Shown in pieces: positions 6,683 to 23,906 of a stretch of 64,000 nucleotides of DNA. Every line of letters starts with the position of its first letter. Within the stretch, counting starts at the first letter, position 1. This DNA comes from an uncultured Verrucomicrobiota bacterium (GTDB lineage: Bacteria; Verrucomicrobiota; Verrucomicrobiia; Limisphaerales; JADLHS01). The stretch spans positions 28,064-92,063 of the forward strand of contig CAIKLQ010000501.1 in NCBI GenBank assembly GCA_903828255.1. The letters run 5' to 3'. The translations under genes and the position numbers were made by a program. The notes under the pieces were generated by a model. The model searched no databases, was not told the DNA's origin, and was given only the letters and a program-made list of their open reading frames with translations.

Positions 6683-7570
6683 ATGAACACTCCAACCCGA
6701 TCAGCCGAACCAACGATTCGTTGCATGGACTGCGGTCGCAAGAACGATGCGAGCGAAAGCGTCTGCGAGTTTTGTGGTGCGACACTTCGTTCGAGCCAAT
6801 CATCGTTCGCCGAACCTCCCGGCGGCAACAGTGCTGGAGTGCGCCCCAGCCTGCCTCCGCCGCTTTTCTCGGCTAACGCCGTATCGCCAGTCTTCCCGTT
6901 CTCCGGGCCGTTGACCCGCTCCTCATCGGAGCTGGAGTCCATCTCCGCTAAAAACGAGGACCAGCGGGTTACGGGCGCGGAACTGAGCGGGCGCGTGATT
7001 GCCGCCGAGCCGGTCGTTCATGAGCAGCCCGATTTCGACTGGTGCAAGCTCGTGACCCGCCTCCTCTGGTTTCTGTTGCTGGTCGTTTCGCCCTTCGTTC
7101 TGCTGCGCACGGTGCTCGTCCACTTGGGGGCATTGCCGGTTGTCTTCGCCGTCGTGGGATTCCTGTTCCTGCTCCGGTTTTTCAGTCCCACGAATATTAT
7201 TTCGCTACTTCATCTTCACATGCTTTTGAATCCGCTTCGTCGTAACGAGGCCGAGCAAGTTCCCGTCCGCTACTTTCGCGTCCGTGATACTCAGGAGCGG
7301 GAGTGGGTTGTGCGGATGAAGGGACAGGTCAACGGTGGCAACATTGCGCCCGATGACTTGATTTCGGCCTGGGGCAGATGGCGCAGCGGCACGCTTTCCC
7401 TGACGCGCGCTTACAATCACCGAACGCAGAGCTACGCCTCCATCAGAAGTTCGCAATCGTGGATCATGCTCACGGTAACGGTGGGGGTGATCCTGTTCCT
7501 CGGCATATACTTCTACGATCCGCTCCACGCGATGTGGCAGATGATGCACCGGATGGGAGGTTCACAGTGA
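6683..7570 (+). CDS. Zinc-ribbon membrane protein
   Basis: N-terminal CMDCGRKNDASESVCEFCG; hydrophobic segments LVTRLLWFLLLVVSPFVLLRTVLVHLGALPVVFAVVGFLFLLRFF and WIMLTVTVGVILFLGIYFY. Confidence 0.75.
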   Translation: MNTPTRSAEPTIRCMDCGRKNDASESVCEFCGATLRSSQSSFAEPPGGNSAGVRPSLPPPLFSANAVSPVFPFSGPLTRSSSELESISAKNEDQRVTGAELSGRVIAAEPVVHEQPDFDWCKLVTRLLWFLLLVVSPFVLLRTVLVHLGALPVVFAVVGFLFLLRFFSPTNIISLLHLHMLLNPLRRNEAEQVPVRYFRVRDTQEREWVVRMKGQVNGGNIAPDDLISAWGRWRSGTLSLTRAYNHRTQSYASIRSSQSWIMLTVTVGVILFLGIYFYDPLHAMWQMMHRMGGSQ

Positions 7571-10140
7571 CGTTACCCGAAAAAATCAGTGGATTGGAAG
7601 GTGGTCATTTGGACGGCACGGGACTGCCCCAATTCTCCATGGAGTATTTCTCCGGTTGGGGGTTCGTGCGCGTGCAAAGCCTCGCGCGCTTTTGGGATAC
7701 GCCTGAGTCAGCGAGTCAGACATTGGAATCGGCGCAGGAGGCGTTCTATTCCGGCCTGCACGCGGCGCAATTACCGTGGGGTCTGCTGGTCCTCGGAGAG
7801 CCAACCCGCGTTTCGATCCATTTCGTGCTTCCCGGTGCGGGCAGTCGCTTGGCGTCCTGGAGCGGTGCGATTAAAGGTGCGCTTCCCGGATGCGAACTCG
7901 CCGACGATGTATCCAACCAGCAAATCTGTTCGCAGTTGGAGAAAATGCCGTTTGCCGTTGCCGTCACGGGGAATCCGTTTGTGGGAAATGTAGATGAAGG
8001 CTCGCAGCGAGTTGTTCGATCAGAAGGTGGGCGATTGGAGCGCGTGCTCTGCTCGTTGCGCGGTCGTGCATTCGCGTATCTGGTAGTCGCTCGCCCAGTG
8101 AAGCTGCCAGAAGTGGAGCGGACGCTGAACAACCTCACCATTGAGGAGCGTGAAATCCGGTCGGCGTTCATGCGGAAAGGCTCATCCGAAGACGGCAACA
8201 ATCCCCGCGCGCAGCACTACCTGGAACTGCTTCGGGTTTCGCGCGAAAATCATCTCGCCGGGCGGAATATCGGCATGTGGGATACCGGGGTTTATCTTCA
8301 CACAGCGGATCAGAGCACTCTCATCGAGGGGAGTCGGGCGCTTCATGGGGTTCTGACGGGAGCACGAAACCAGCCTCAGCCCATCCGAGTGAATGTCTGC
8401 GAACGTCCCGCCCAAGGTCGGTTTGAGCCGGTTTTCACCCGCTTGAATTCCAAGGAAGTCATGGTTTTGACATGCCTGCCGAAAGAGGAATTGCCGGGCT
8501 ATGAAATTCGCCAGCGGGTGTCTTTTGGTGTTTCGCCAGTGCTGCATGGAGCGGGAGACGTGGTGGATGTCGGCGTCGTTCTCAAGGACAGCCAGCGGAC
8601 AGGCAATTGGTTTTCCGTTCCGGTGAATGATTGGGCGCGGCACGCTCTGATCGCGGGTGTTTCCGGTTCGGGCAAGACGAACACCTGCAAATCCATCCTT
8701 TTTCAGTGCTGGCACGACCATTCCGTTCCATGGCTGGTGCTCGAACCCTCAATCAAGTCGGAGTATCGCACGCTGCTCAAGTCGAAGATTGGCGCGGATG
8801 TCCGCGTCTTCACACTTGGCGATGAAACAGCCGTGCCATTCCGCCTGAACCCGTTGGAAGTCATGGCGGGCATCCATGTGCAAACGCACATTGATGCGTT
8901 GCTCGCGCTTTTCAACTCGGCCTTCGCCTGGGTTTCGCCAATGCCGGAAGTTCTTAACCTCGCCGTTCACCGACTCTACACAAACTTCGGCTGGGACTTA
9001 GCCACAGGCAGTCGTCACAAGACGGACGGTTCAGAGCAGCCGACTTTGCGGGATTTGTTGGCGGTCATTCCGGGGTTGGTCGGCGAACTCGGCTACAACG
9101 ACGACATTTCCTCGACGATTCGCGCAGGCTTGCTCACGCGACTTTCCAGTCTGTCGCTCGGTGCGAAAGGGCTGATGTTGAATTCCGGCCATTCCATTCC
9201 TTTCGACTACCTGCTCGCCAAGCCGACGATTCTTGAAATGGCTACCATCGGCAACGAGGAGGAGAAAGCATTCCTGCTTGGGGCGGTTTTAGTGCGGCTC
9301 GCGCAATACCGCCAGCGCCAAGGAACGACGGATGGGAAATTACGTCACCTCCTGCTGATTGAAGAAGCTCATCGGCTGTTGTCCGCCGTGCCTTCACAGG
9401 TCGCGTCCGAAGTCGCCAATCCGCGCGGCAAGGCGGTAGAAACCTTTTGCCATCTGTTGGCGGAGTTGCGGGCGTTTGGGCAAGGCATTGTCGTCGCGGA
9501 ACAAATCCCTGCGAAACTCGCGCCGGATGTTGTCAAGAACACGACGGTGAAGATTGTGCATCGGCTCGGTGCGAATGATGACCGCCGCCTGCTCGGTGGA
9601 ACGATGAATCTCGATCCCTCCCAAGAGAAGTTCCTCTCCACGCTGCGTAATGGTCAGGCCGTAGCTTACACTGAAGGGCGTGAGACGGCCTTCCATATTG
9701 GAGTTCCCCACTTCGAGCATGGGCAGAACCCGCTTCCCGTTCCGACGAAGGAAGAAATTGTTGTTCACATGCGCTCACAGTTGCCAGAGATGCCGCCGAT
9801 CACACATGCGCTACGCAAAAAGCACACAACTGCTACTGCTGATAACATTCCATCTTGTGCCGGCTGTCTACCCAGCTCTTGCACCATGCGGGGCGTAGTG
9901 CTGCAAAAGTTGGCGAAGTCTGGTTGGGAAGCGGAATTCGAGGGATCAATTGAACGCGGCTGGAAGGGAATTTGGGAGTTTGGCATGTCCGCCGCTAAAA
10001 CCCTCCCTGTGACGAATAAACCCAACTGCGCCTACTGTGTCCTGATGAACATCGCCGCATTGAACCGCTGGGATGATGAAACCGTGGAACGAATGCGGCG
10101 CAATCTCGCGGCGCTCCGAGACAACATGGCAATCTCCTGA
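7567..10140 (+). CDS. HerA/DUF87-type ATPase
   Basis: LIAGVSGSGKTNTCKSILFQCW (Walker A), LLLIEEAHRLLSAVPSQVASEVANPRGKAVETFCHLLAELRAFGQGIVVAEQIPAKLAPDVVKNTTVKIVHRL. GTG start overlaps the upstream TGA (GTGA). Confidence 0.85.
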   Translation: MTLPEKISGLEGGHLDGTGLPQFSMEYFSGWGFVRVQSLARFWDTPESASQTLESAQEAFYSGLHAAQLPWGLLVLGEPTRVSIHFVLPGAGSRLASWSGAIKGALPGCELADDVSNQQICSQLEKMPFAVAVTGNPFVGNVDEGSQRVVRSEGGRLERVLCSLRGRAFAYLVVARPVKLPEVERTLNNLTIEEREIRSAFMRKGSSEDGNNPRAQHYLELLRVSRENHLAGRNIGMWDTGVYLHTADQSTLIEGSRALHGVLTGARNQPQPIRVNVCERPAQGRFEPVFTRLNSKEVMVLTCLPKEELPGYEIRQRVSFGVSPVLHGAGDVVDVGVVLKDSQRTGNWFSVPVNDWARHALIAGVSGSGKTNTCKSILFQCWHDHSVPWLVLEPSIKSEYRTLLKSKIGADVRVFTLGDETAVPFRLNPLEVMAGIHVQTHIDALLALFNSAFAWVSPMPEVLNLAVHRLYTNFGWDLATGSRHKTDGSEQPTLRDLLAVIPGLVGELGYNDDISSTIRAGLLTRLSSLSLGAKGLMLNSGHSIPFDYLLAKPTILEMATIGNEEEKAFLLGAVLVRLAQYRQRQGTTDGKLRHLLLIEEAHRLLSAVPSQVASEVANPRGKAVETFCHLLAELRAFGQGIVVAEQIPAKLAPDVVKNTTVKIVHRLGANDDRRLLGGTMNLDPSQEKFLSTLRNGQAVAYTEGRETAFHIGVPHFEHGQNPLPVPTKEEIVVHMRSQLPEMPPITHALRKKHTTATADNIPSCAGCLPSSCTMRGVVLQKLAKSGWEAEFEGSIERGWKGIWEFGMSAAKTLPVTNKPNCAYCVLMNIAALNRWDDETVERMRRNLAALRDNMAIS

Positions 10141-10153
10141 ACCCGAAAAGCAC

Positions 10154-10777
10154 ATGTCCTCGAAATCACCAGAGCGGATGAAACTTCAGAAGCCGAGCGA
10201 GACGCCTGCGCTCCGCACCTATTTCGCCGACATGGACAAGGCCGCTGTCGGCGCAATCGGAGAACGGTTCAAGGAGTTTATCCCCGCGGATCGTCTGAAG
10301 AATCTGCCAGACATGCCGAGCAAGTTTGAAAGCTCACAGGACCTTCGTAAGACGTATCGGGCGGAGACGGGTCACAAAGCGCCTGATGGCCTTACCGGTT
10401 TCACCAGGCCGGATTCGCCGGCGCACATATCCGTCAAGCATCTGGCGGGCGTTCCCGAAACGGTCTTGCACGAGCGGCTTCATCAAATGGCTTCGCCGGA
10501 CGCCAAGCGTCTTCTCGGTAAACACTACGAAGGCGTCACGCAGGATCTGGCGATTGAGGTTCTGGGGCGAGAACCGCAGGAGGGGGAATTGACGGGCTAC
10601 CCGGTCGAGCGCGAGCGCGCCCATTCTATGAGGAAACTTGTTGGGTCTGATGCCGTTTGCCGGGCCTATTTCCAAGGCGATGCAAAACCACTGAAGGCGG
10701 CGCTTGATCGAATGGCCTCGGAACGTCCGCTTGCGGGCATGCAGGACAAAATTAAGGAACTTCCGCCGCTAGAGTAA
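10154..10777 (+). CDS. Zincin-like (HExxH) putative metallopeptidase
   Basis: ETVLHERLHQMASPDAKRLLGKHYEGVTQDLAIEVLG: HExxH with a downstream EGxTxxLxxEVLG segment typical of zincin folds. Confidence 0.6.
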   Translation: MSSKSPERMKLQKPSETPALRTYFADMDKAAVGAIGERFKEFIPADRLKNLPDMPSKFESSQDLRKTYRAETGHKAPDGLTGFTRPDSPAHISVKHLAGVPETVLHERLHQMASPDAKRLLGKHYEGVTQDLAIEVLGREPQEGELTGYPVERERAHSMRKLVGSDAVCRAYFQGDAKPLKAALDRMASERPLAGMQDKIKELPPLE

Positions 10778-10796
10778 CAGACAAAACCAAAAAACT

Positions 10797-11699
10797 ATGG
10801 GTGAAGGAATCGCAAAACTTGTTGGCGTCCTGTTCTTGATCATCGCGGCGATCTACGCGGTGGTTCTCATCATAGCTGCCGCAGTGGTGATTGCCGCCGT
10901 GCTTGCACCTCCGGTCGGAGCGGGCTATTGGCTACGAAAGCTGTTCACCCAACGATACCAGCTTGGGCCTCGCAAAACAGTAAAGTGCGTTCTGGTCGGC
11001 CTTGCGATGGCAGCCCTCCCGTTGATCCCCTTGGGCGTAGCGCCCGCGCCTGTTTCAGATTGGACCGTAGCAACCGCCGTCTGGATGTCCATCACGGGCT
11101 GCCTCCTTGGCGTGGGACTTTACCTGGCCTTGAGCGTTTACCACGACGTGTTCTGGCCGCATCGCAGGACGATCATTGTCGCGACGAAGGAAAGTCTAGC
11201 ACTGAGGTATCAACTCTGGCGACAGGACTTCCAGTTGAACCGAGTCAGCGCACGAGTTCGCAGGGTCGAACAAAGGGAAAATGCTCGCCTTGCGGAACTC
11301 CGCACACTTGAGCAGAGCGTGTCGGAAGTAATTCGGTCCACTGATCCGGCATTTCTCAGCGCGGAACGCGTGCGCTGGGAGACTGAATACAGCAACCTTG
11401 GTGCGTCAGCGCTTCGTAGCGAGTTGGACAAAGTTCAGGGCGAGATAAACCAAACGGATAGGTCGTCCGCCTACTATTCGAGCTTAATGGTGCAATCGGG
11501 CATTCTGCGCATGTTGGTTCAACGTGGTGCATTTGCCTCTGGAAGCGGTGCAACTTTCGAGGCTGATCTTGCAAAGAAATCTGACCTCGAATCGACAACC
11601 GGTGGGCTGCGGGAGCGGCTCAATGCGCTCCGAAGTCAGGTTGTTGACGCCTATGCGTCACTGCGCCAACTCCGCCGACAACGCGTGTTCGTCCAATAA
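10797..11699 (+). CDS. Membrane/coiled-coil hypothetical protein
   Basis: Strongly hydrophobic N-terminal half, charged helical C-terminal half. Confidence 0.6.
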   Translation: MGEGIAKLVGVLFLIIAAIYAVVLIIAAAVVIAAVLAPPVGAGYWLRKLFTQRYQLGPRKTVKCVLVGLAMAALPLIPLGVAPAPVSDWTVATAVWMSITGCLLGVGLYLALSVYHDVFWPHRRTIIVATKESLALRYQLWRQDFQLNRVSARVRRVEQRENARLAELRTLEQSVSEVIRSTDPAFLSAERVRWETEYSNLGASALRSELDKVQGEINQTDRSSAYYSSLMVQSGILRMLVQRGAFASGSGATFEADLAKKSDLESTTGGLRERLNALRSQVVDAYASLRQLRRQRVFVQ

Positions 11700-11712
11700 C
11701 CCTTCAAGACCT

Positions 11713-12273
11713 ATGTCACTAACCGCTGATTACGATACTGAGATTCGAGTTCCCCAATTTCAACTTGGCGAAGCGCTTGGGGCTGTTGCCGGCCTTGCCG
11801 CATCCGAGATTCTGCGAAGACTTCTCACCGGCAGATCGGGCACGCAAAGCGTCGCTGCCAGCACGCCGCAGCCGGAATTGACCTCCGCGCTCGCAAACAT
11901 TCGTAGCCTTCCCTCCATGAACATCATGCGGCAGGCTCTTGAAACAGTCGCTCGCGAGCGGAACGGCTCGGTGGCGGAAGACTACGAAGACTGCAATGGT
12001 AAGCGAACTCCCTGCCTCATCGGGTTGAAGGCTCCGCAGTTCCCGCGAGGAGTGGGAGTGGACATCTCGGCTGATGGCAAAGTCGTGTTCCGTTATGACG
12101 AGGTAGGCGGTGTTGCGCCTGCCGCCAAGTCGCTTTGCGACGATGTTTGCCGCGTGTATGCGACCATAGCGGTCCTGCACGCTCAAAAGAAACTCGGCTA
12201 CCGGGTCAGCGCACGAGACATGTCGGATGCCGCTGGCCGGAAGCAGGTGGTTGTTTCCGCAATGCGCGACTAA
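11713..12273 (+). CDS. DUF1257/Ycf35-like protein
   Basis: APQFPRGVGVDISADGKVVFRYDEVGG plus neighbourhood with radical SAM and DUF2997-like genes; family assignment from memory. Confidence 0.4.
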   Translation: MSLTADYDTEIRVPQFQLGEALGAVAGLAASEILRRLLTGRSGTQSVAASTPQPELTSALANIRSLPSMNIMRQALETVARERNGSVAEDYEDCNGKRTPCLIGLKAPQFPRGVGVDISADGKVVFRYDEVGGVAPAAKSLCDDVCRVYATIAVLHAQKKLGYRVSARDMSDAAGRKQVVVSAMRD

Positions 12274-12278
12274 AAGCC

Positions 12279-12914
12279 ATGCATACCAGAGGAAGCCAAC
12301 TTCTGCGTGTCCATCGGTTTCTGGCTGAAACCGAAGTTGAAGGACCGGGCCGGAGGGCCGCCCTGTGGGTTCAAGGCTGCCCGATTAGGTGTCCAGGTTG
12401 TGCCAATGGCGCAACTTGGACGTTCGATGGAGGCTACCAGACGACAGTGGAGAGTCTGTTCGATCAAATTCACGCGCAACGTGGCATCGAAGGTGTCACT
12501 TTCATCGGTGGCGAACCGTTCTCCCATGCGGGGGCGCTGGCAGCGCTTGGCCGACTCTGCCGGGAGCATGCACTATCAGTAGTCACATTCACAGGTTACG
12601 AGTATGCGCGACTTATCGCAGCGCGCCGACCGGACTGGAACGCCTTGCTGGAAGTAACGGACCTGTTGTTGGCTGGACCTTTCGTCGCAGCCCAGAAGGA
12701 CTTTTCCCGTCCGTGGGTTGGATCGCGCAATCAGGAATTCGTTTTTCTCACTGACCGTTACCGCCACTTGCAGGCAAAAGGCGTCGCGTTGAAAAACGGA
12801 TTGGAAATCCTCATCGCTCCAAGCGGAAGCATTCGGCTGAACGGTCTTGCTCCCGTCGAGGACATATCTGCGATGCGCCGGGAATTGGCATCGCTCGGAC
12901 TGAACACAAATTGA
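12279..12914 (+). CDS. 4Fe-4S / radical SAM activating-enzyme-like (NrdG-like) protein
   Basis: GRRAALWVQGCPIRCPGCANGATW cluster motif, VTFIGGEPFSHAGALAALGRLCREHALSVVTFTGYEYARL. Confidence 0.8.
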   Translation: MHTRGSQLLRVHRFLAETEVEGPGRRAALWVQGCPIRCPGCANGATWTFDGGYQTTVESLFDQIHAQRGIEGVTFIGGEPFSHAGALAALGRLCREHALSVVTFTGYEYARLIAARRPDWNALLEVTDLLLAGPFVAAQKDFSRPWVGSRNQEFVFLTDRYRHLQAKGVALKNGLEILIAPSGSIRLNGLAPVEDISAMRRELASLGLNTN

Positions 12915-12926
12915 GGCAACAACAAC

Positions 12927-13145
12927 ATGAAGAAGACGATTCAGACAAGGATTGATGCGAACGGGGACGTTCACTTGGATTTTGCAGGGTTCGTAGGACG
13001 CGAATGCCAAGTCGAGGAGGATCGCCTTCGTCGCGAATTAGCGACGTTGGGCTTGAATGTTGGCGTCACGCTATCGCCAAAAATGTCCGGCCGTCAATCC
13101 GCTGCGATTCAACCGTCCAGTTCAATGCAGAAGAATGTTCAGTAG
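12927..13145 (+). CDS. DUF2997-like small protein
   Basis: MKKTIQTRIDANGDVHLDFAGFVGRECQVEEDRLRRELATLGLNV fits the pattern of an ionG-v-v-...G-x-G-x-C family next to radical SAM/DUF1257 genes. Confidence 0.5.
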   Translation: MKKTIQTRIDANGDVHLDFAGFVGRECQVEEDRLRRELATLGLNVGVTLSPKMSGRQSAAIQPSSSMQKNVQ

Positions 13146-13160
13146 CTCCCAAAGTCCGCC

Positions 13161-13802
13161 GTGACGTATCGAATGATAACGCTTTGCACAATCAAGGACT
13201 TGATGCAAAAGGCAATTTGCTTGTTGGAGGCGTCATACTTTACAGACCGTCCTGATCGTTTTCATCCATCTGCTGCGAGTATCGCTTCCCCGAACCTGTT
13301 GGCGCTTCAGTGTCTTGAACTCATCGCGCTGTGCAAGTCGCCGGAGAAAACAAACGCATTGTTTTTGGCAAACGTGGTGACGTGGCTTGCTCTTGAGAAG
13401 CGGACTCCGACCTTGTTGATCACAGACAAACACTCGCTCACTGTTCTCGCGGTCAACCTGCTGTTGTGGCGAGCAGGAATCAATCTGGAAGAAGCCGTCA
13501 ACCCTGCTTGGGACGAGAATGAGTTCGCGCGATTAACCGTTGCCGCTGGCGAACTTGCCAGCGCCCCGCTTCTTGCAGTGAGGACAACGCCCATTTTGAC
13601 ATTCTGGAGTATGGCCCATGCTGCTGTTGCCAACCACGGAACACGCTGGGTCGTCATGGACAGAGCCGAAACAGAATCATTCGGCCAATTGACCAAGCTT
13701 AGTTGTGAGCTTGGCGTGCCCATCACGATCACATCGTCGGCTTCGGTCTGGCGTTGGCGGCGTGCAAGCGAACAGCGGAGCGGACGGAACGGAGTTGAGT
13801 GA
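13161..13802 (+). pseudogene. Degenerate/truncated DnaB-like RecA-fold protein
   Basis: EFARLTVAAGELASAPLLAVRTTP resembles DnaB (ARLTxAAGxLxxAPL); Walker A position degenerate (SPEKTNALFLANVVTWLALEKRTPTLLIT); last ~25 residues are encoded by the repeat at 13739. Confidence 0.45.
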
Positions 13803-13979
13803 AGCCGCGTAGCTGGAGCGACGACACCAACACCAGACGGAAGCCCGCCGCCCTCGCGGCATTCTGCCAATGCTCGCTTGTGACGAGCGCGCGGTTTGCG
13901 GAGCGGAACGGGCGTGGTCGAGAGGGATACGGGGTCGACCGGCAGCCCGTGCAGCGGAGCAGAACCGCGCGTTGGTCAC
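13739..13979. repeat. Double-inverted-repeat element, copy 1
   Basis: Arms A: GGCTTCGGTCTGGCGTTGG (13739-13757) / CCAACACCAGACGGAAGCC (13827-13845); arms B: GTGACGAGCGCGCGGTT (13880-) / AACCGCGCGTTGGTCAC (13963-13979). Confidence 0.75.
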
Positions 13980-14058
13980 GGCAGAATCGGTAACGTGCAC
14001 AGCGTTCTCCGGCTCGCAACGAGTGCAACGAGAATCCCCATGTCCTTTCGCAAATGGT

Positions 14059-14538
14059 TCAACTCGCACTTCGATTTCCAACGTCGGATGGCGTGTGCTT
14101 CCGCAGCGCGGGAGCAAGGGTCGCGGGATTAACCCCCGTCCAACGGCAAAGTTCGACGTGGGTTTGTGGACCATAGTTGCTGGGGCGTCGGCCCGGCGAA
14201 AGTAGTCCAGTTTGCAGGGCATGGCGGACCGACTTTTTGTTGGCGGGAATGCCGGATCGGCGAAGACATCGCCAAGCTCGGTAAGAAATCCCGATGTCTG
14301 GATAAGGGGACGTATCGTGGGCGGGCCAAATGTGGGGCAAAGCCCCAGGGTCAACACCAGCCCAGTGACAGACTTCCCTATGCGTTTTTTTGCCGTAGTT
14401 TGGCGGCCAACAATAGGGGTAGAGTCTCCCGGTTTTGAGAGCACGGATGATGACCTCTTTCTTGATGGGAATGCCGGCGTTCACTAGGCAGCGGTTCGTT
14501 CTGCCGCAAAGGCCGTTTGGAAGCAATCTGGATGTCAT
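14059..14538 (-). CDS. Hypothetical protein with two tandem ~52 aa homologous domains
   Basis: CLVNAGIPIKKEVIIRALKTGRLYPYCWPPNYGKKTHREVCHWAGVDPGALP and CLRRSGIPANKKSVRHALQTGLLSPGRRPSNYGPQTHVELCRWTGVNPATLA. Confidence 0.6.
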   Translation of the reverse strand: MTSRLLPNGLCGRTNRCLVNAGIPIKKEVIIRALKTGRLYPYCWPPNYGKKTHREVCHWAGVDPGALPHIWPAHDTSPYPDIGISYRAWRCLRRSGIPANKKSVRHALQTGLLSPGRRPSNYGPQTHVELCRWTGVNPATLAPALRKHTPSDVGNRSAS

Positions 14539-14556
14539 GGCTAGGTGCCTTCAATC

Positions 14557-15138
14557 TCAGGCGGCGTTGCGTTTGGATGCAGATTTCTTGCTGGGAAAAC
14601 TTCGGTGCACCTCTTGGTTCGGTTCACCCGCGATCATTGCGTCCCAGGAAAGCGTCGCCCACTTGCCTTTGCCTTTCCCGAGTAACTGACGGTCAACCAT
14701 TCGGGCTGCAAATTGGAAGTCGTCCGATATTTTGACCACGACCAGCTTGCCGAAATTTCCAGCTCGCTTGAGCCGTACGCCATTACTCTTCTTGTCCGGC
14801 GTGATGGTCTTCACCTCCACGAAATCATTGCCGAGCAAGCCATCCGATCCCTGGGTCATCGGATTGTGCCGCTTGATGCCAAACATGATCTCTGCGAACA
14901 GCTCGCCGAGTTCTCCAAGGATGGGAAGATGGCGTCCGGTAAGCCGCTTGTATTTTGCCGCCGCTTCCACCAACTCCGCAAAGACCTCCAAAATTTCAGG
15001 ACGAACCTTGCGGTGGTCTCTGGGCAGCAGTCGGCCTTTGGTGGAATCGTAGAGATACGCGTGACGAAGCAGGACGCTGTCTTTTCGAGCTTCAGCCTCC
15101 TTGTCCGCAATCGACTGCGGTCGGGTGGTGGTGCTCAT
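14557..15138 (-). CDS. PD-(D/E)XK nuclease-like protein
   Basis: GELGELFAEIMFG....GSDGLLGNDFVEVKTITPDKKSNGVRLKRAGNFGKLVVVKI. Confidence 0.6.
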   Translation of the reverse strand: MSTTTRPQSIADKEAEARKDSVLLRHAYLYDSTKGRLLPRDHRKVRPEILEVFAELVEAAAKYKRLTGRHLPILGELGELFAEIMFGIKRHNPMTQGSDGLLGNDFVEVKTITPDKKSNGVRLKRAGNFGKLVVVKISDDFQFAARMVDRQLLGKGKGKWATLSWDAMIAGEPNQEVHRSFPSKKSASKRNAA

Positions 15139-15280
15139 AATTTTGTCAGGTTAATGACAGCGCATCGGCAGGCTGCGCGCTGCATTGTCTGGGGCGGCGG
15201 AATATCCACCAAGTTCATGCGATTGCTCATCGAGTTGCCAAAGCATAGTCACATTCGGACAGGCTGGCTATCACCGACAA

Positions 15281-15519
15281 GCTTCGGTCTGTGGTCGGCG
15301 AGCGGGGAAAGTGGAGCGGAGGGCGGAGAGAAGCGCATAGCGAATCGTAGCCGGAGCGCAACGCCGCCGCCGAGCCACAGACGGAAGCCGCCGCGTCTGC
15401 GGCACTGCAATATGAAAGCTCGTGACGAGCGCGCGATTTGCGAAGCGGAACGGGCGTGGTTGAGAGGGGACAGGGCCGACCGGCAGCCCGTGAAGCGCAG
15501 CAAACCGCGCGTTGGTCAC
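15281..15519. repeat. Double-inverted-repeat element, copy 2 (direct orientation)
   Basis: Arms A: GCTTCGGTCTGTGG (15281-15294) / CCACAGACGGAAGC (15375-15388); arms B: GTGACGAGCGCGCG (15422-) / CGCGCGTTGGTCAC (-15519). Confidence 0.75.
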
Positions 15520-15870
15520 GGCGGATTGGGTTTATGATTTTTCTATACCCCTGTCAACGAATGTCATACCTTTCCAGCTATTCTATGAGCATGAAAACCG
15601 AACCAGTCACCTCAACTGAGAATCTGATCCGTGATTTCGGCTTCGCGCTTTCAATTATTTTTCGGGGCGTTTCAGCCAACATGCACTCCTTGTCTCTTAT
15701 TCTCCGTGCAGTGTTTCGAAATATTCTGCATCATTTATTTTATGAGCATGGCAACTTCAGCGACCAGAACGGGAATCAGGAACAACCACAATTACCGTAT
15801 CATTGCCGATTGGTCCAAGGTGAACATGCAGACGGCTTTGCCGTCCGTTTGAAATTCACCCCATATTCCT

Positions 15871-18800
15871 ATGGACGTATTTAACTTTCGCAATCGAATC
15901 ATCGAGGACTACAGCGGCTACGTTTCGAGCTTTATCTCCATCGCGCAATCACGCCTGCGTGAGTTCGTGGATCGCTGCTTTAAGTCCGGCTCCCTGTGGC
16001 CCGATCCGCTGATTCAACTGAACCCGACATTCAAGCCGGGCATGACCGTGGCGGAATTGGTGCAGGAAGATGTGCTCGCAACCGGCTGCACCAAGGTTTT
16101 CCGGCGCGATAAAACGGCGGCGGTCGGCAGCGGTGAAGACCTGCTTTTTCACCAGCATCAGGAAGACGCGATCCGCAAAGCAAAGGAGGGGCGCAACTAC
16201 GTGCTGACGACCGGCACCGGTTCCGGCAAGAGTCTTTCTTACATCGTCCCGATTGTGGACCACGTTCTCCGCGCCGGCTCGGGGCGCGGCATTCAGGCCA
16301 TTATCATCTACCCGATGAACGCGCTGGCCAACAGCCAGTTCGGGGAGCTGGAAAAGTTCCTGAAGCTCGGATTCGCTGGCGGCCAGGGTCCGGTCACCTT
16401 TGAGCGCTACACCGGACAGGAAGATGAGGAAACGCGCACGCGGATCATTGCCACGCCGCCGGACATCCTGCTGACGAATTACGTCATGCTGGAATTGATT
16501 CTCACCCGGCCGCGCGAGAAAAAACTCATCGCCTCCGCCAAGGGCTTGAAGTTTCTGGTGCTCGACGAACTTCACACCTACCGCGGTCGCCAGGGCGCGG
16601 ATGTCGCCCTCCTGTTGCGCCGCGTGCGCGAATTGCTCAATGCCGATGCGATGCAGTGTGTCGGCACCTCCGCGACATTGGCGGGCCGTGGCTCCTGGTC
16701 GGAACAGTGTGCGGATGTCGCCAAGCTTGCCACTCGCCTGTTCGGCGACGAGGTCGCCGGCAGCGACATTATCGGTGAAACTTTGGAGCGCGCCACTGCT
16801 CCCATTGACGAAACGAACGCCGACGATGTCGCCGCGCTCAGCGCGGTGTTCGCCCCCAATGCCCGACACCTGCCGGAAACGTTTGATCAACTCGCGGCGG
16901 ATCCCGTCGCCCGCTGGGTCGAAGGAACTTTTGGCATCGTCCCGCTGGCGGGTCGTCTCGTTCGTTCGCCCTCCATCCCCTTGACCGGCAAAAATGGCGC
17001 TGCCGAGCGTCTCGCCAAACTCACCGGCGCATCCACCGAACGCTGCAAGGAAGTTGTTGCGGCGACGCTCCTCGCTGGGGCCACCCGCATCCGGCATCCA
17101 CGCACGGGATTTCCCGTCTTCGCGTTCCGGCTGCATCAGTTCATTAGTCGTGGCGACACGCTTTACGCCACCGTTGAAACCCCGGAGCAACGCTATCTCA
17201 CCATTCACGGCCAGATTTATTCGCCGGAAGACCGCAGCAAGATTTTGCTTCCGCTCTGTTTCTGCCGCGAATGCGGGCAGGAATATTATTCCGTGTATCT
17301 CGCCAAGGACCCGCAGACGGGCGTGCAGAAGTTTCTCAGTCGCGAGGCCCACGAACGCACCGAGGTCGTCGGCCAGAAGCAGGGCCTCCTCTATATCAAC
17401 CCGTCGAAACCGTGGCCGCGTGATACGGAAATGGAAGCGCAGCTTGCCTGGCTGCCCACGGACTGGGTCGAGGAACGCAACGGCAAGCGGCAGGTGATCG
17501 CCTCCCGGCGCGAACGGATGCCGCGACATTACGTCGTGAAACCGGACGGCTCCATCGGTGCGGACGGTCTGGATGCCGCCTTCATCCCGGTGCCCTTCAT
17601 GTTCTGCCTCGGCTGCGGCGTGTCGCACACCGCGCGGCAGCGTTCTGATTTTTCCAAGCTCGGCACCCTCGGCTCGGAAGGCCGGAGCACCGCGACCACC
17701 ATCCTGACCACTTCGGCGGTGGCCGGCCTGCAACGCGAGGAGACGATCAAGCCCGAAGCGCGCAAGTTGCTCAGTTTCACCGACAATCGCCAGGACGCCT
17801 CACTGCAATCCGGCCACCTCAACGATTTCATCGAAGTCGGGCTGCTTCGCGGCGCGATCTACAAGGCGGCCGTGGCGGCTGGTGCCGATGGCTTGCGCGA
17901 CGACACCATCAGCCAGAAAGTCACAACCGCACTCGGACTGCGGTTCGAGGATTATGCCAAAGATCCCACCATCAAATATGGCCGGGACAAGGTGGAAACC
18001 GCCCTGCGCGATGTCGTGGGTTATCGGGTATATCGCGACCTGCGGCGCGGCTGGCGCGTGAACGCGCCGAACTTAGAGCAGTGCGGCCTGATCGAAATTG
18101 ATTACGCCGAACTCGACGCCGTTTCCGGCGACACCCCCCTGTGGACCGCTTTGCATCCGGTGCTCGGCAATGCCAGCGCCGAGACGCGCAAGGTCGTTTG
18201 CCGCACCCTTCTCGATTTCATACGGCGCGATCTCTGCACCGAGGTGGACTACCTCGACCGCGATACCCAGGACCGAATCAAGCGCAACAGCTTTAACGAG
18301 CTTCGCGACCCGTGGTCGTTTGACCCGGTTGAAAAACTCGACCAGCGGAAAATGGCGTTTCCCTGTTCCAAACAGGACGATTCTCCCGAACTGGAGGCAT
18401 CCTATATTTCCGCCCTTGGCGGCTTCGGCTTATTTCTTCGCTCGGCAAACACGTTCCCGGGCCAGCCCAAGCCCGATGTCGCCACCACCAAAGACCTAAT
18501 CTGCGCCTTGTTTGAGGGGTTACGGCAGGCAAACATCGTCCGCGAATGTGTGCCGAAGGGCGAGCGCGCCCCCGTGCCGGGTTATCGCATCAATTCCGGC
18601 GCCCTCATCTGGCGCGCGGGCGATGGCACCAAGGCTTACCACGACCGCATCCGCATGCCCACCGCTTCAGCCACCGGCAGCACGCCCAATAAATTCTTCG
18701 TCGAACTGTTCCGTTCGCGCATTCAGCAGATGCGCGGCGTTTCTTCGCGGGAACACACCGCGCAGGTGCCCGGTCCACTTCGGATCCAACGCGAAACCGA

Positions 18801-21087
18801 TTTTCGTTCGGCCAAACTGCCCATCCTTTTCTGTTCGCCGACGATGGAACTCGGAATCGACATCAAGGATTTGAACGCGGTCAATCTGCGCAACGTCCCG
18901 CCCACGCCAGCCAACTACGCTCAGCGCAGCGGGCGCGCCGGTCGCAGTGGTCAACCCGCGCTGGTGTTCGCCTACTGCTCGTTCGGGAGCCCGCACGACC
19001 AGTATTTCTTCAAGCATCCCGAACTCATGGTTTCCGGCCAGGTGCAGACGCCACGGCTCGACGTGGCCAATGAAGACCTAATTCGGTCGCACATCCACGC
19101 CGTCTGGTTGCGCGAAGCAGACCTCGATCTCGGCAACACACCCGGTGACCTCATTGTTCTAGGCGGCGACCCGCCCACCTTGGAGTTGCTCCCGGACGTG
19201 AAGAACAAGGTCCGCAGCCAGACCGCTGCCCAGCAGGCGCGCGTCCGCGCCCAGGAGGTGCTCGACGCACTCAGCCCGTATCTGGCGAGTGCCCCGTGGT
19301 ATTCCGCCGGCTGGCTTGATGAAGTGTTGCGCGGTATCCCGCAGGCGTTTGAGGCTGCGCTGGAACGCTGGCGTTTTCTTTACCGCACCGCGCGCAATCA
19401 GGCCGACGAGCAGCATCGCATTATTCTGGATCACTCGCGTCCGCAGGATCACGAAAACGCCAAGCGTCTGCGTCAGGAGGCGGAAGCCCAACTCAAGCTG
19501 CTCACCGACAAGCAGAGCGTCGTTCAATCAGACTTTTACAGCTATCGCTATTTTGCCAGCGAAGGCTTTCTGCCCGGTTACAATTTCCCGCGACTCCCGC
19601 TTTCGGCCTTTATCCCCGGCCGGCGCACCGCCCAGGAGGCCGAGGAGTTCATCTCCCGACCGCGTTTCCTCGCCATCTCGGAGTTTGGCCCCGGCGCACT
19701 TATCTATCACGAGGGCGCACGGTATCAGGTCACGCGTGTCATGATGCCGATGCAGGAGGGTGCCACCGGCGACTTGCCAACCTCAAAACTCATCGTGTGC
19801 AGTGCCTGTGGTTATCTGCATCCGGTGCTGAAGGAGCCTGGCCCGTCGAATTGCGAACGCTGCAAGCAGGCATTCGAGGCCAAGGACATTTGGTCAAATA
19901 TGTTCCGTCAACAAAACGTCGTCACTCGGCGGCGCGAGCGCATCAATTGTGATGAAGAGGAACGCCTCCGCCTCGGTTACGAAATCAAAACCGGCGTGCG
20001 CTTCGCCGAGCGCGATGGCCGACCACTCTTTCGCACCGCGCGCCTGCTCCTCGGGAGTGAACTCTTTGCCGAGTTGCAATACGGCGATGCCGCCGAATTG
20101 TGGCGCGTGAATCTCGGTTGGTCGCGCCGTGAGAACAAGGAGGACCGTGGTTTCTGGCTGGATGTCGAGCAGCGGCGTTGGACCAAGCGCGCCATTGACC
20201 CGGATGACGAGGATGAAAATAACGGCAAAGCACCCGCCCGCGTCCAGAAGGTTATTCCGTTTGTCAAAGACCGCCGGAACAGTCTGGTCATTGCGCTGGC
20301 CAATGAGTCGGATATGAACGTCATGGCTTCGCTTGAAGCCTCGCTCAAACGCGCCATCCAGATCGAATATCAACTCGAAGATTCCGAGTTGGCCACTGAG
20401 GCGCTCCCCACGCGGCAGAACCGTCGCCATCTTCTCTTTTATGAGGCGGCGGAGGGTGGAGCCGGTGTGCTGCGGCAGTTGGTAGAAGATCCAAAAGCAT
20501 GGACCCGGATCGCACGGCGGGCTTTGGAATTGTGCCACTTCAATCCCGATACCGGCGCTGATCTCGGCAAGGCCGAACACGCCCAGGAAAAATGTCAGGC
20601 CGCCTGCTACGACTGTTTGCTGAGCTACTTTAATCAGCCTGATCACGAATCTTTGGACCGGCACTGCGTCAAAGACCTGCTGCAACAGATCATGACCGGC
20701 ACAATGGAACCGTCGCCGGTCGAAATTCCCCGCCCTGAACATCTCGCCAGGTTGAAAAAACTCTGTGACACCGGCCTTGAAAAGCAGTTCCTCGATTTTC
20801 TGGACGAACACAGCCTCCGGTTGCCTGAGCGCGCCCAGCACTATTACGAAAAGTTCGGCACCCGCCCCGATTTCAGTTACACGGGCGAGAACCCGGCGTT
20901 CATCTATGTGGATGGCCCGCCGCACGATTTCCCGGAGCGCCAGTCTCGTGATACCGCTCAGAACTCGACCCTCAAGGCTGAGGGCATCACGGTCATTCGC
21001 TTCCATCACGCTGCGGATTGGGCATCGGTCGTCGCCCAGTATCCGAGTGTCTTCGGCAATTTAGGCACCACCGGAGGCGCAAAATGA
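15871..21087 (+). CDS. YprA-family DEAD/DEAH helicase with DUF1998 and C-terminal nuclease-like region
   Basis: [87 protein letters not shown]...[18 protein letters not shown]; tail [48 protein letters not shown]. Confidence 0.9.
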
Positions 21088-23906
21088 GCTTCGCTCCGGG
21101 CACTCTCGTTAAGGCGCGCGGGCGCGAATGGGTCGTGTTACCGGAATCGGAGGAGGATTTTCTCGTTGTCCGTCCGCTGGGCGGCACGATTCAGGAAACC
21201 GCCGGTATTCATTCCCTGCTGGAGTCCGTCACTCCGGCCACTTTCGCCCCGCCAGCTCAAAACGATCTCGGCGACTTTGTTTCTTGTCGTCTGCTGCGCG
21301 ATGCCGTGCGTTTTGGTTTCCGTTCGAGTGCCGGCCCGTTCCGGTCCTTCGGTCGTCTCGCCGTTCAGCCGCGCCCTTATCAGCTAGTGCCGCTCCTCAT
21401 GGCACTGAAGCTCGACCCCATCCGGTTGCTTATCGCGGACGACGTGGGCATCGGCAAAACCATCGAAGCGTGTTTGGTCGCGAGGGAAATGTTAGATCGC
21501 GGTGAGATCACCCGGCTCTGCGTCCTGTGTCCGCCCCATCTCGCCGAGCAGTGGCAAAAGGAACTCGCCAGCAAATTTAACATCGCGGTCGAGCTGGTTC
21601 TTTCAAGCACGGCACGACGTCTCGAAAAAAATCTGCGCTCTGACCAGTCCATCTTCGATGTCTATCCGTTTGTCGTCGTCTCCATGGATTTCATCAAGGC
21701 CGACCGCCGCCGCCACGATTTTCTGCGCACCTGCCCGGATTTCGTCATCGTGGACGAAGCCCACACGTGCGCGTCCTCCGCCGAGGGCCGTGGCGCCGCT
21801 CATCAGCGGCACGAGCTTCTGGCGAAGCTCGCCGAAAAACCGGAGCGCCATCTCGTGCTCGTCACCGCCACGCCGCACAGCGGCAACGAGGGCGCGTTTC
21901 GTTCCTTGCTCACGCTGCTCACGCCCGCTTTCAAAAATTTGCCGGACGACCTCTCCGGCCCGGACAAGGCGATCCACCGCCGTCACCTCGCTGCTCATCT
22001 CGTCCAGCGCCGCCGCGCTGACTTGCGACATTTTCTTCAGCGCGACACGCCTTTCCCCGAACGTCTGGACACGGAAGCGCACTACGAACTCAGCCCCGCT
22101 TACAAGGCGCTCTTCGAGAAGGTGCTCGACTACGCTCGCGAAACCGTCACCGACGCGTCCGGCGGCGCACTGCATCAGCGGGTCCGCTGGTGGTCTGCGC
22201 TATCGCTGCTTCGCGCCATGGCCAGCAGTCCTGCCGCCGCTGCCGCCACGCTCACGGAACGCTCAAATGTGCTTGAAGCGGCTGACACCACTGCCGCCGA
22301 TGAACTTGGGCGCAAGTCTGTGCTCGATGCCACTGAAGACCTCGGCGACGAAGCCTCGGATGTCGCGCCCGGTGCCGACCCGGAAAAGGAGGGTGACAAT
22401 CCCGTGCGCCGGCGTCTGCTCGCCTTCGCCCGTGAAGCGAAAAAATTGTGCGGCGATGAGGATTACAAACTCACCAAACTCCTCCCGCGCATTCAGTCCC
22501 TGCTCAATGAAGGTTTCAAGCCCATCATTTTCTGTCGCTTCATCCAAACGGCCGAATATGTCGCGGCGGAGTTGCGCGACCGGCTCAAAAAAGTGGAGGT
22601 CACCTGCATCACCAGCCAGCTTGCGCCCGAGGAGCGCGCTGCCCGGATCGAAACTTTGGAGGGTAACGACGCCGTCGCCCGCATTCTCGTCTGCACCGAC
22701 TGTCTGAGTGAAGGCATCAACCTCCAGGAAAAATTCGACGCCGTGGTCCACTACGACCTTTCGTGGAATCCGACGCGGCACGAGCAGCGCGATGGCCGCG
22801 TGGATCGTTACGGCCAGACCAATGCGAAAAAACAGGTCCGCATCCTGACCTATTACGGCACGGACAATCAGATTGACGGGATCGTCCTCGATGTCCTGCT
22901 GCGCAAGCATCAGAAAATTCGTAACGCTCTTGGCGTTTCGGTGCCGATGCCTGTGGACAGCGAGCAGGTCGTCAAAGCCGTGTTCGAGGGTTTGTTGCTG
23001 CGCGGCCAGTCTGGCAAACAATCCGACGCTGTGCTGCCGGGATTCGACGAATACTTTCGCCCGCAGAAACAGCAGCTCCACGAACAATGGGAAGCCGTCG
23101 CCGACCGCGAGAAACGCTCGCGCACGATGTTCGCCCAGGAATCCATCAAGTTTGATGAGGTTGGCGCCGAGTTGGCTGCCGCCGAGCACGCCATCGGCTC
23201 GCCGGCTGAAATCTCCAATTTCTTCCGGTCCACGCTCACGCTTTCCGGCGCGGTGGTGAATGACGAAGCCATTCTCAAGACCGATCTGGCAGGACTCAAG
23301 CCCGCCGTCCGCGAGGCGCTCGGGGGTGCCACCCGTCTGGAAGTCGCGTTCGAGCCGGTTGCCGCCAAGAATGTCACGCTGTTGCACCGCACGCACCCGC
23401 TCGTTGAGGGTCTCGCCTCCTATGTTCTAAACTCCGCGCTCGACCCCTTGCTCGGCGGTCTCGCCCGGCGCGCGGGTGTCATCCGCTCGAAGACCGTGAC
23501 TACGCGCACGGTTCTGATGCTCTTGCGGCTCCGCTTTCACATTGTCACCACCACGCGCGAAGGCGAACGCCATTTGCTCGCCGAAGATGCGCTGCTCACC
23601 GCTTTCACCGGCGACCCGGCCGCCCCGCAATGGCTGCCGGAAGTTGACGCGGAAAAACTCATCGCGGTGAAGCCGGACGCCAGCGTGCCGCCGGACATTG
23701 CCATTCACCAGCTCGCTTCCGTCACAGATCATTTGCCCGGCATGATTCCGATGCTCGACGAGTTTGCCAACAAGCGTGGACAAGAACTTCTCGAAGCCCA
23801 TCGTCGCGTCCGCAGCGCTGCTGGTGCCAAGGGCAGCTACCGCATTGATCACAGTCCGCCGGATGTGCTCGGCATCTATATCTTCCTCCCCGTTACGAAG
23901 CTATGA
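21084..23906 (+). CDS. SNF2/RapA-like helicase
   Basis: [56 protein letters not shown] overlap with previous gene. Confidence 0.9.

Follow-up and report, generated by a model that had tools for sequence, protein, structure and literature searches.

R, a ~246 bp repeat with a conserved fold, marks the junction between exchangeable gene blocks in one verrucomicrobial order. Tentatively, we view it as the common site at which a cassette-type exchange system recombines genes within the cargo zone of this order's conjugative elements, a reading that we favor while holding it just short of probable. The mechanism that best explains R on its own would be site-specific and driven by a tyrosine recombinase; the chief rival, homologous recombination, may operate alongside it. 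Gene blocks, many with defence genes, would be joined at R, in the same orientation, to each other and to a T4SS backbone. Blocks would enter as circles carrying one R, a tyrosine recombinase would act on R with the folded strand as its putative substrate, and exchange by homologous recombination among the copies is probably part of the process. A sharp, structured junction common to many conjugative elements offers a physical handle on the way defence systems pass from one element to another and gather in islands. Should exchange at R prove site-specific, it would amount to a cassette system that serves whole operons yet lies outside the integron family.

The window, the whole 64,000-nucleotide stretch of verrucomicrobial DNA analysed here, holds two direct copies of R on the + strand, ~1541 bp apart (Table 1). 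An earlier note had placed paired-hairpin repeats at 13739–15519; they lie there, with an end nearer 15522 than 15519. Each copy comprises an outer hairpin, hp1 (GCTTCGGTCTG...CAGACGGAAGC), a mini-hairpin (GCCGC...GCGGC) and a long hairpin, hp2 (CTCGTGACGAGCG...CGCGCGTTGGTCACGGC). The hairpins described by that note are thereby borne out, and its quoted arm sequences, the unpaired G opposite G in the hp1 arms of both copies and the two minus-strand genes between the copies are all correct. The arm difference between the window copies is that between hp1 sub-families. Compared with copies behind the same genes, copy 1 is 80–91% alike in hp2 and only 54–59% in hp1, and is thus a within-R chimera.

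Table 1. Features of the R pair and intervening block (window coordinates)
Feature	Coordinates	Strand	Observation or basis
R copy 1	13740..13982	+	Chimeric: hp1 of minor sub-family, hp2 of main family
hp1 of copy 1, with G.G mismatch	13740..13844	+	Sequence, fold, consensus pairs
Mini-hairpin of copy 1, GCCGC...GCGGC	13847..13860	+	Sequence; helix 2 of covariation analysis
hp2 of copy 1	13877..13982	+	Covariance model match, 122 bits
Spacer between copy 1 and gene 2	13983..14058	-	R-side part resembles 3' end of dnaE2-like gene
Gene 2, 159 aa	14059..14538	-	Two repeats of a three-helix domain
PD-(D/E)XK nuclease-like protein, 193 aa, DUF6998-like	14557..15138	-	
Nuclease start to copy 2, ~140 bp	15139..15280	.	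Not in common with L007
R copy 2	15281..15522	+	Typical main-family copy
hp1 of copy 2, with G.G mismatch	15281..15388	+	Fold, consensus pairs
Mini-hairpin of copy 2	15390..15403	+	Sequence; covariation analysis
hp2 of copy 2	15419..15522	+	Covariance model match, 115 bits

Against dinucleotide shuffles, the two window copies folded with z = −4.1 and −3.9 under RNA parameters, and copy 2 with z = −3.3 under DNA parameters. Across 38 R copies the consensus fold comprises 47 pairs, with 95.9% of cells pairing, and 19 pairs had changed on both sides versus 6.2 ± 1.9 in shuffles (0/500 reached 19). Slid registers of the same copies gave 3–11 such pairs, with pairing down to 25–40%. Compensatory changes occur in both long hairpins; the G.G mismatch is invariant in hp1 and a second G.G is kept in hp2. 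Covariation thus supports selection for a folded form of R, as the earlier note had proposed, and the absence of compensatory changes that would have spoken against it was not what we found. The + strand of R (GCTTCGG...GTTGGTCACGGC) runs opposite to most neighbouring block genes and folds better in 38/38 copies. Shuffles under DNA parameters attribute nearly all of this advantage to base composition, and we therefore did not accept the asymmetry as showing that the substrate is single-stranded, or as a counterpart of the bottom-strand selectivity of integron sites; under RNA parameters the + strand folds slightly more strongly than composition predicts.

The earlier note had proposed a genome-wide covariance-model search for further copies; this genome holds five true copies, on which a pattern search, a DNA search and the hp2 covariance model each agree: the window pair, one on the same contig (C501:2965) and one each on C616 and C672. 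C366, one of six pattern matches, is not an R. In total, 89 copies or partial copies were found in 66 loci of one verrucomicrobial order, with R present in 17/96 relative genomes (weak matches included) and 41/320 genomes of the order. Among 388 genomes drawn across the phylum none outside the order carried R, the only matches being two known R genomes. The closest named record, L007, is a Verrucomicrobiaceae metagenome genome. The plasmid and phage collections searched yielded no R, and three exact 17-mer matches in viral contigs had no R around them. Half-elements framing an autonomous transposon were also considered and dismissed, many halves being contig ends or copies with divergent hp1.

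R has sharp edges: conservation falls from ≥1.26 bits to ≤0.41 within 1–2 bp on each side, except for a C just outside the hp2 end. On 17 multi-copy contigs, 45/45 copies share direct orientation (28 free comparisons), and inverted copies are nearly absent. Flank comparison of 67 full copies gave 23 pairs sharing the left side only, 58 sharing the right only and none (0/81) sharing both, identifying R as a junction between exchangeable gene blocks and bearing out the expectation that other copies flank different genes. A three-way case illustrates this, with A-R-T4SS side in L084, A-R-B in L176 and C-R-B in L177: the same left block meets different right blocks, and vice versa, at one R. Fold, flanks and block exchange accord with the cassette-type recombination site or structured repeat family of the earlier note; the left limits of common blocks, however, are often not another R. 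The same gene ends are found both followed by R and lacking it (gene A of L070, for instance, lacks it in L093 and L182), which means that R does not belong invariably to such genes. Gene ends lie ≤30 bp from R in 20/45 cases, and five ORFs take their stop codon from R's own TGA.

Two readings of R as something other than an exchange site bear on these observations. A non-autonomous transposable element of the REP/RAYT, IS200/IS605 or MITE type, inserting near gene ends, would account for the sharp edges of R, for a hairpin at each of its ends and for the fact that a given gene may or may not be followed by R; we nevertheless judge it very improbable. Target-site duplication, which marks DDE transposons and MITEs, was absent in 200 tests, no terminal inverted repeat spans R, and flank exchange is not expected from simple insertion. 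PF01797 (Y1 transposase) matches were present in 12 genomes, none on R-bearing contigs, and in this sample no close relatives that are otherwise collinear were found to differ by a clean insertion of R. R does share with REP/REPIN sequences and their RAYT a palindromic make-up, a place downstream of genes and conserved mismatches; REPs, however, measure 20–40 bp (PMC3733652) against ~246 bp, and no Y1 gene lies near R. Least probable of all, to the point of being barely credible, is that R serves defence operons as a structured RNA or as a terminator in their 3' region. Covariation, the slight excess of + strand folding under RNA parameters and a left neighbour reading toward R in 55/78 cases would suit it, but the genes of some blocks point away from R (as in L084), no two copies agree in both flanks and an Rfam search of R gave no match above the gathering score.

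Homologous recombination is the more serious rival, a real possibility though clearly less probable than the exchange-site reading. R would then be a structured repeat whose main role lies elsewhere, with exchange due to ordinary RecA-dependent recombination between R copies on co-resident elements. The copies are long and alike enough for it (baseline likeness 0.79 in hp2 and 0.72 in hp1, 0.90–0.96 in the best pairs), and direct arrays would also be the outcome where circular DNA recombines with an R copy by a single crossover. Window copy 1, as a chimera within R, fits the same process, as does an inversion by which the ~96% identical segments L175:5237–6596 and L193:5739–7101 differ, its breakpoint lying inside hp1; no dedicated enzyme was found. 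The conserved fold and the occurrence of R, with sharp edges, next to unrelated genes are left unexplained by this rival, and the near absence of inverted copies counts against it. Both hairpins are somewhat above baseline likeness in left- and right-sharing pairs, making the crossover point in flank-sharing triads ambiguous.

The 193-aa protein encoded between the window copies carries a conserved GSDG..GNDFVEVK motif, matches Eco15I/NhoI/PvuII in fold and matches PF22522 weakly; that the gene 2 product binds DNA is our guess. R lies ~60–85 bp downstream of gene 2 in L007, L074, L077, L194 and the window. Gene 2 and R are kept in L074 and L194, and in L077 together with a truncated nuclease. 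L007 holds the nuclease/gene-2 block with one R downstream, placed and oriented as in the window, but on its upstream side the block adjoins a helicase gene and no R intervenes. That the two window copies bracket one excisable cassette is accordingly no more than a possibility. In the window the block is flanked by a HerA-like/radical SAM operon upstream and by a DruE/DpdE-type helicase operon. A search for an empty site, with the neighbour uninterrupted, gave no homologue of the neighbouring ORF. The surroundings of the R pair (window 7378–23906) encode defence-like proteins: a HerA-like ATPase, a radical-SAM protein and two helicases, one DEAD/MrfA-like and DruE-like (1738 aa) and one DpdE-type (827 bits). 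In several loci (L073, L075, L078) the gene before R encodes a dnaE2-like DNA polymerase, a frequent arrangement; in L075 and L078 this gene has a 3' end resembling the window spacer, and its last ~60 bp seem to have been left upstream of R in nuclease/gene-2 blocks.

Many arrays continue, to the right of their last R, into a conserved stretch that encodes a MORN-repeat protein, a ClpB-like AAA ATPase and a T4SS, whose backbone proteins are VirB4/TraC-like, TrbL and CagX; several R arrays abut this conserved conjugation locus. The VirB4-like protein is ~90% identical across families, and L194 and L066 share 98% identity over 312 bp of the conserved right region, a pattern that suggests recent transfer. 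Among the block genes are matches to DISARM, BREX, Dpd, JetD (Wadjet), DRT and AbiEii models, and genes left of R also include HipA and ThiF families and efflux and transport genes; the scan covered R-flanking genes only, so that any enrichment for defence is descriptive. Between R and the T4SS backbone, L066, L068, L070 and L179 carry a DUF1016/YhcG PD-(D/E)XK nuclease gene, where other elements have only ~85 bp. Near the far end of the conjugative elements a 1718-aa protein is conserved (L111:2647–7803) that matches methyltransferases and SNF2/helicases weakly.

R resembles a cassette junction, yet tests of integron membership place it outside the integrons. Like the sites of integron cassette arrays, it is a folded imperfect palindrome conserved in structure, its direct-orientation copies separate variable genes, genes are packed against it, and the accessory genes, defence genes included, are interchangeable. 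Unlike those arrays, it has no IntI beside it and no attI-intI platform; its arms read GTTGGTC (6/7) and GACGAGC in place of the RYYYAAC/GTTRRRY pair; two long hairpins occupy its ~246 bp; and its blocks span 0.3 to tens of kb with several genes. An attC scan was negative at nearly all R loci and positive at L125, an IntI contig whose attC is unlike R. Matches above the 265-bit cut-off of the IntI model TIGR02249 lie on other contigs than R, and recombinases near R reach at most ~72 bits on this model. Five R genomes do have true IntI genes in other places, accompanied in one case by a canonical attC; these loci carry no R, and we rejected IntI as the enzyme acting on it. A more specific proposal is possible, though on balance improbable: R would be an IntI-independent cassette site at whose two-hairpin fold a conjugative-element or host tyrosine recombinase captures multi-gene defence blocks during single-strand transfer, making the elements a platform for shuffling defence systems.

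Tyrosine recombinase genes occur near R in 11/66 loci, most loci having none nearby. They span at least three sub-families, so that none stands out as a single dedicated enzyme. Six end 19–587 bp left of R (19 bp in L188, 53 bp in L186, 87 bp in L085), a recombinase pseudogene lies ~43 bp right of R in L075, and the recombinase 3' end usually faces R. These placements, and arrays built of direct repeats, would suit tandem accretion, in which various tyrosine-recombinase islands attach at R and integrate next to one another, each leaving an R as its end. Known accretion at att sites likewise shows direct repeats between blocks, some adjacent tyrosine recombinases and conjugation genes. We consider this account unlikely: most blocks have no recombinase, R is structured, covarying and far longer than a usual att core, and on C176 the recombinase at the distal end of the conjugative element has no R past it. 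Strand-biased circularizing integrative elements and GInts also mobilize accessory genes through tyrosine recombinases; they are defined by a fixed recombinase gene set (PMC10214605, PMC5385486), and no such set was found at R.

A 340-aa recombinase family is present in 13/14 strong-R genomes and in fewer than half of the others, an association that may reflect mobilome size. The family is common in the order, and its first catalytic arginine reads SQ in the alignment. Its sites include L088, L164, L170, L193 and L075, as well as G002:C176:21695 and G005:C56:262140. Contigs C17, C56, C60 and C75 of G005 carry identical sets of three adjacent tyrosine recombinase genes, a RIT-like trio.
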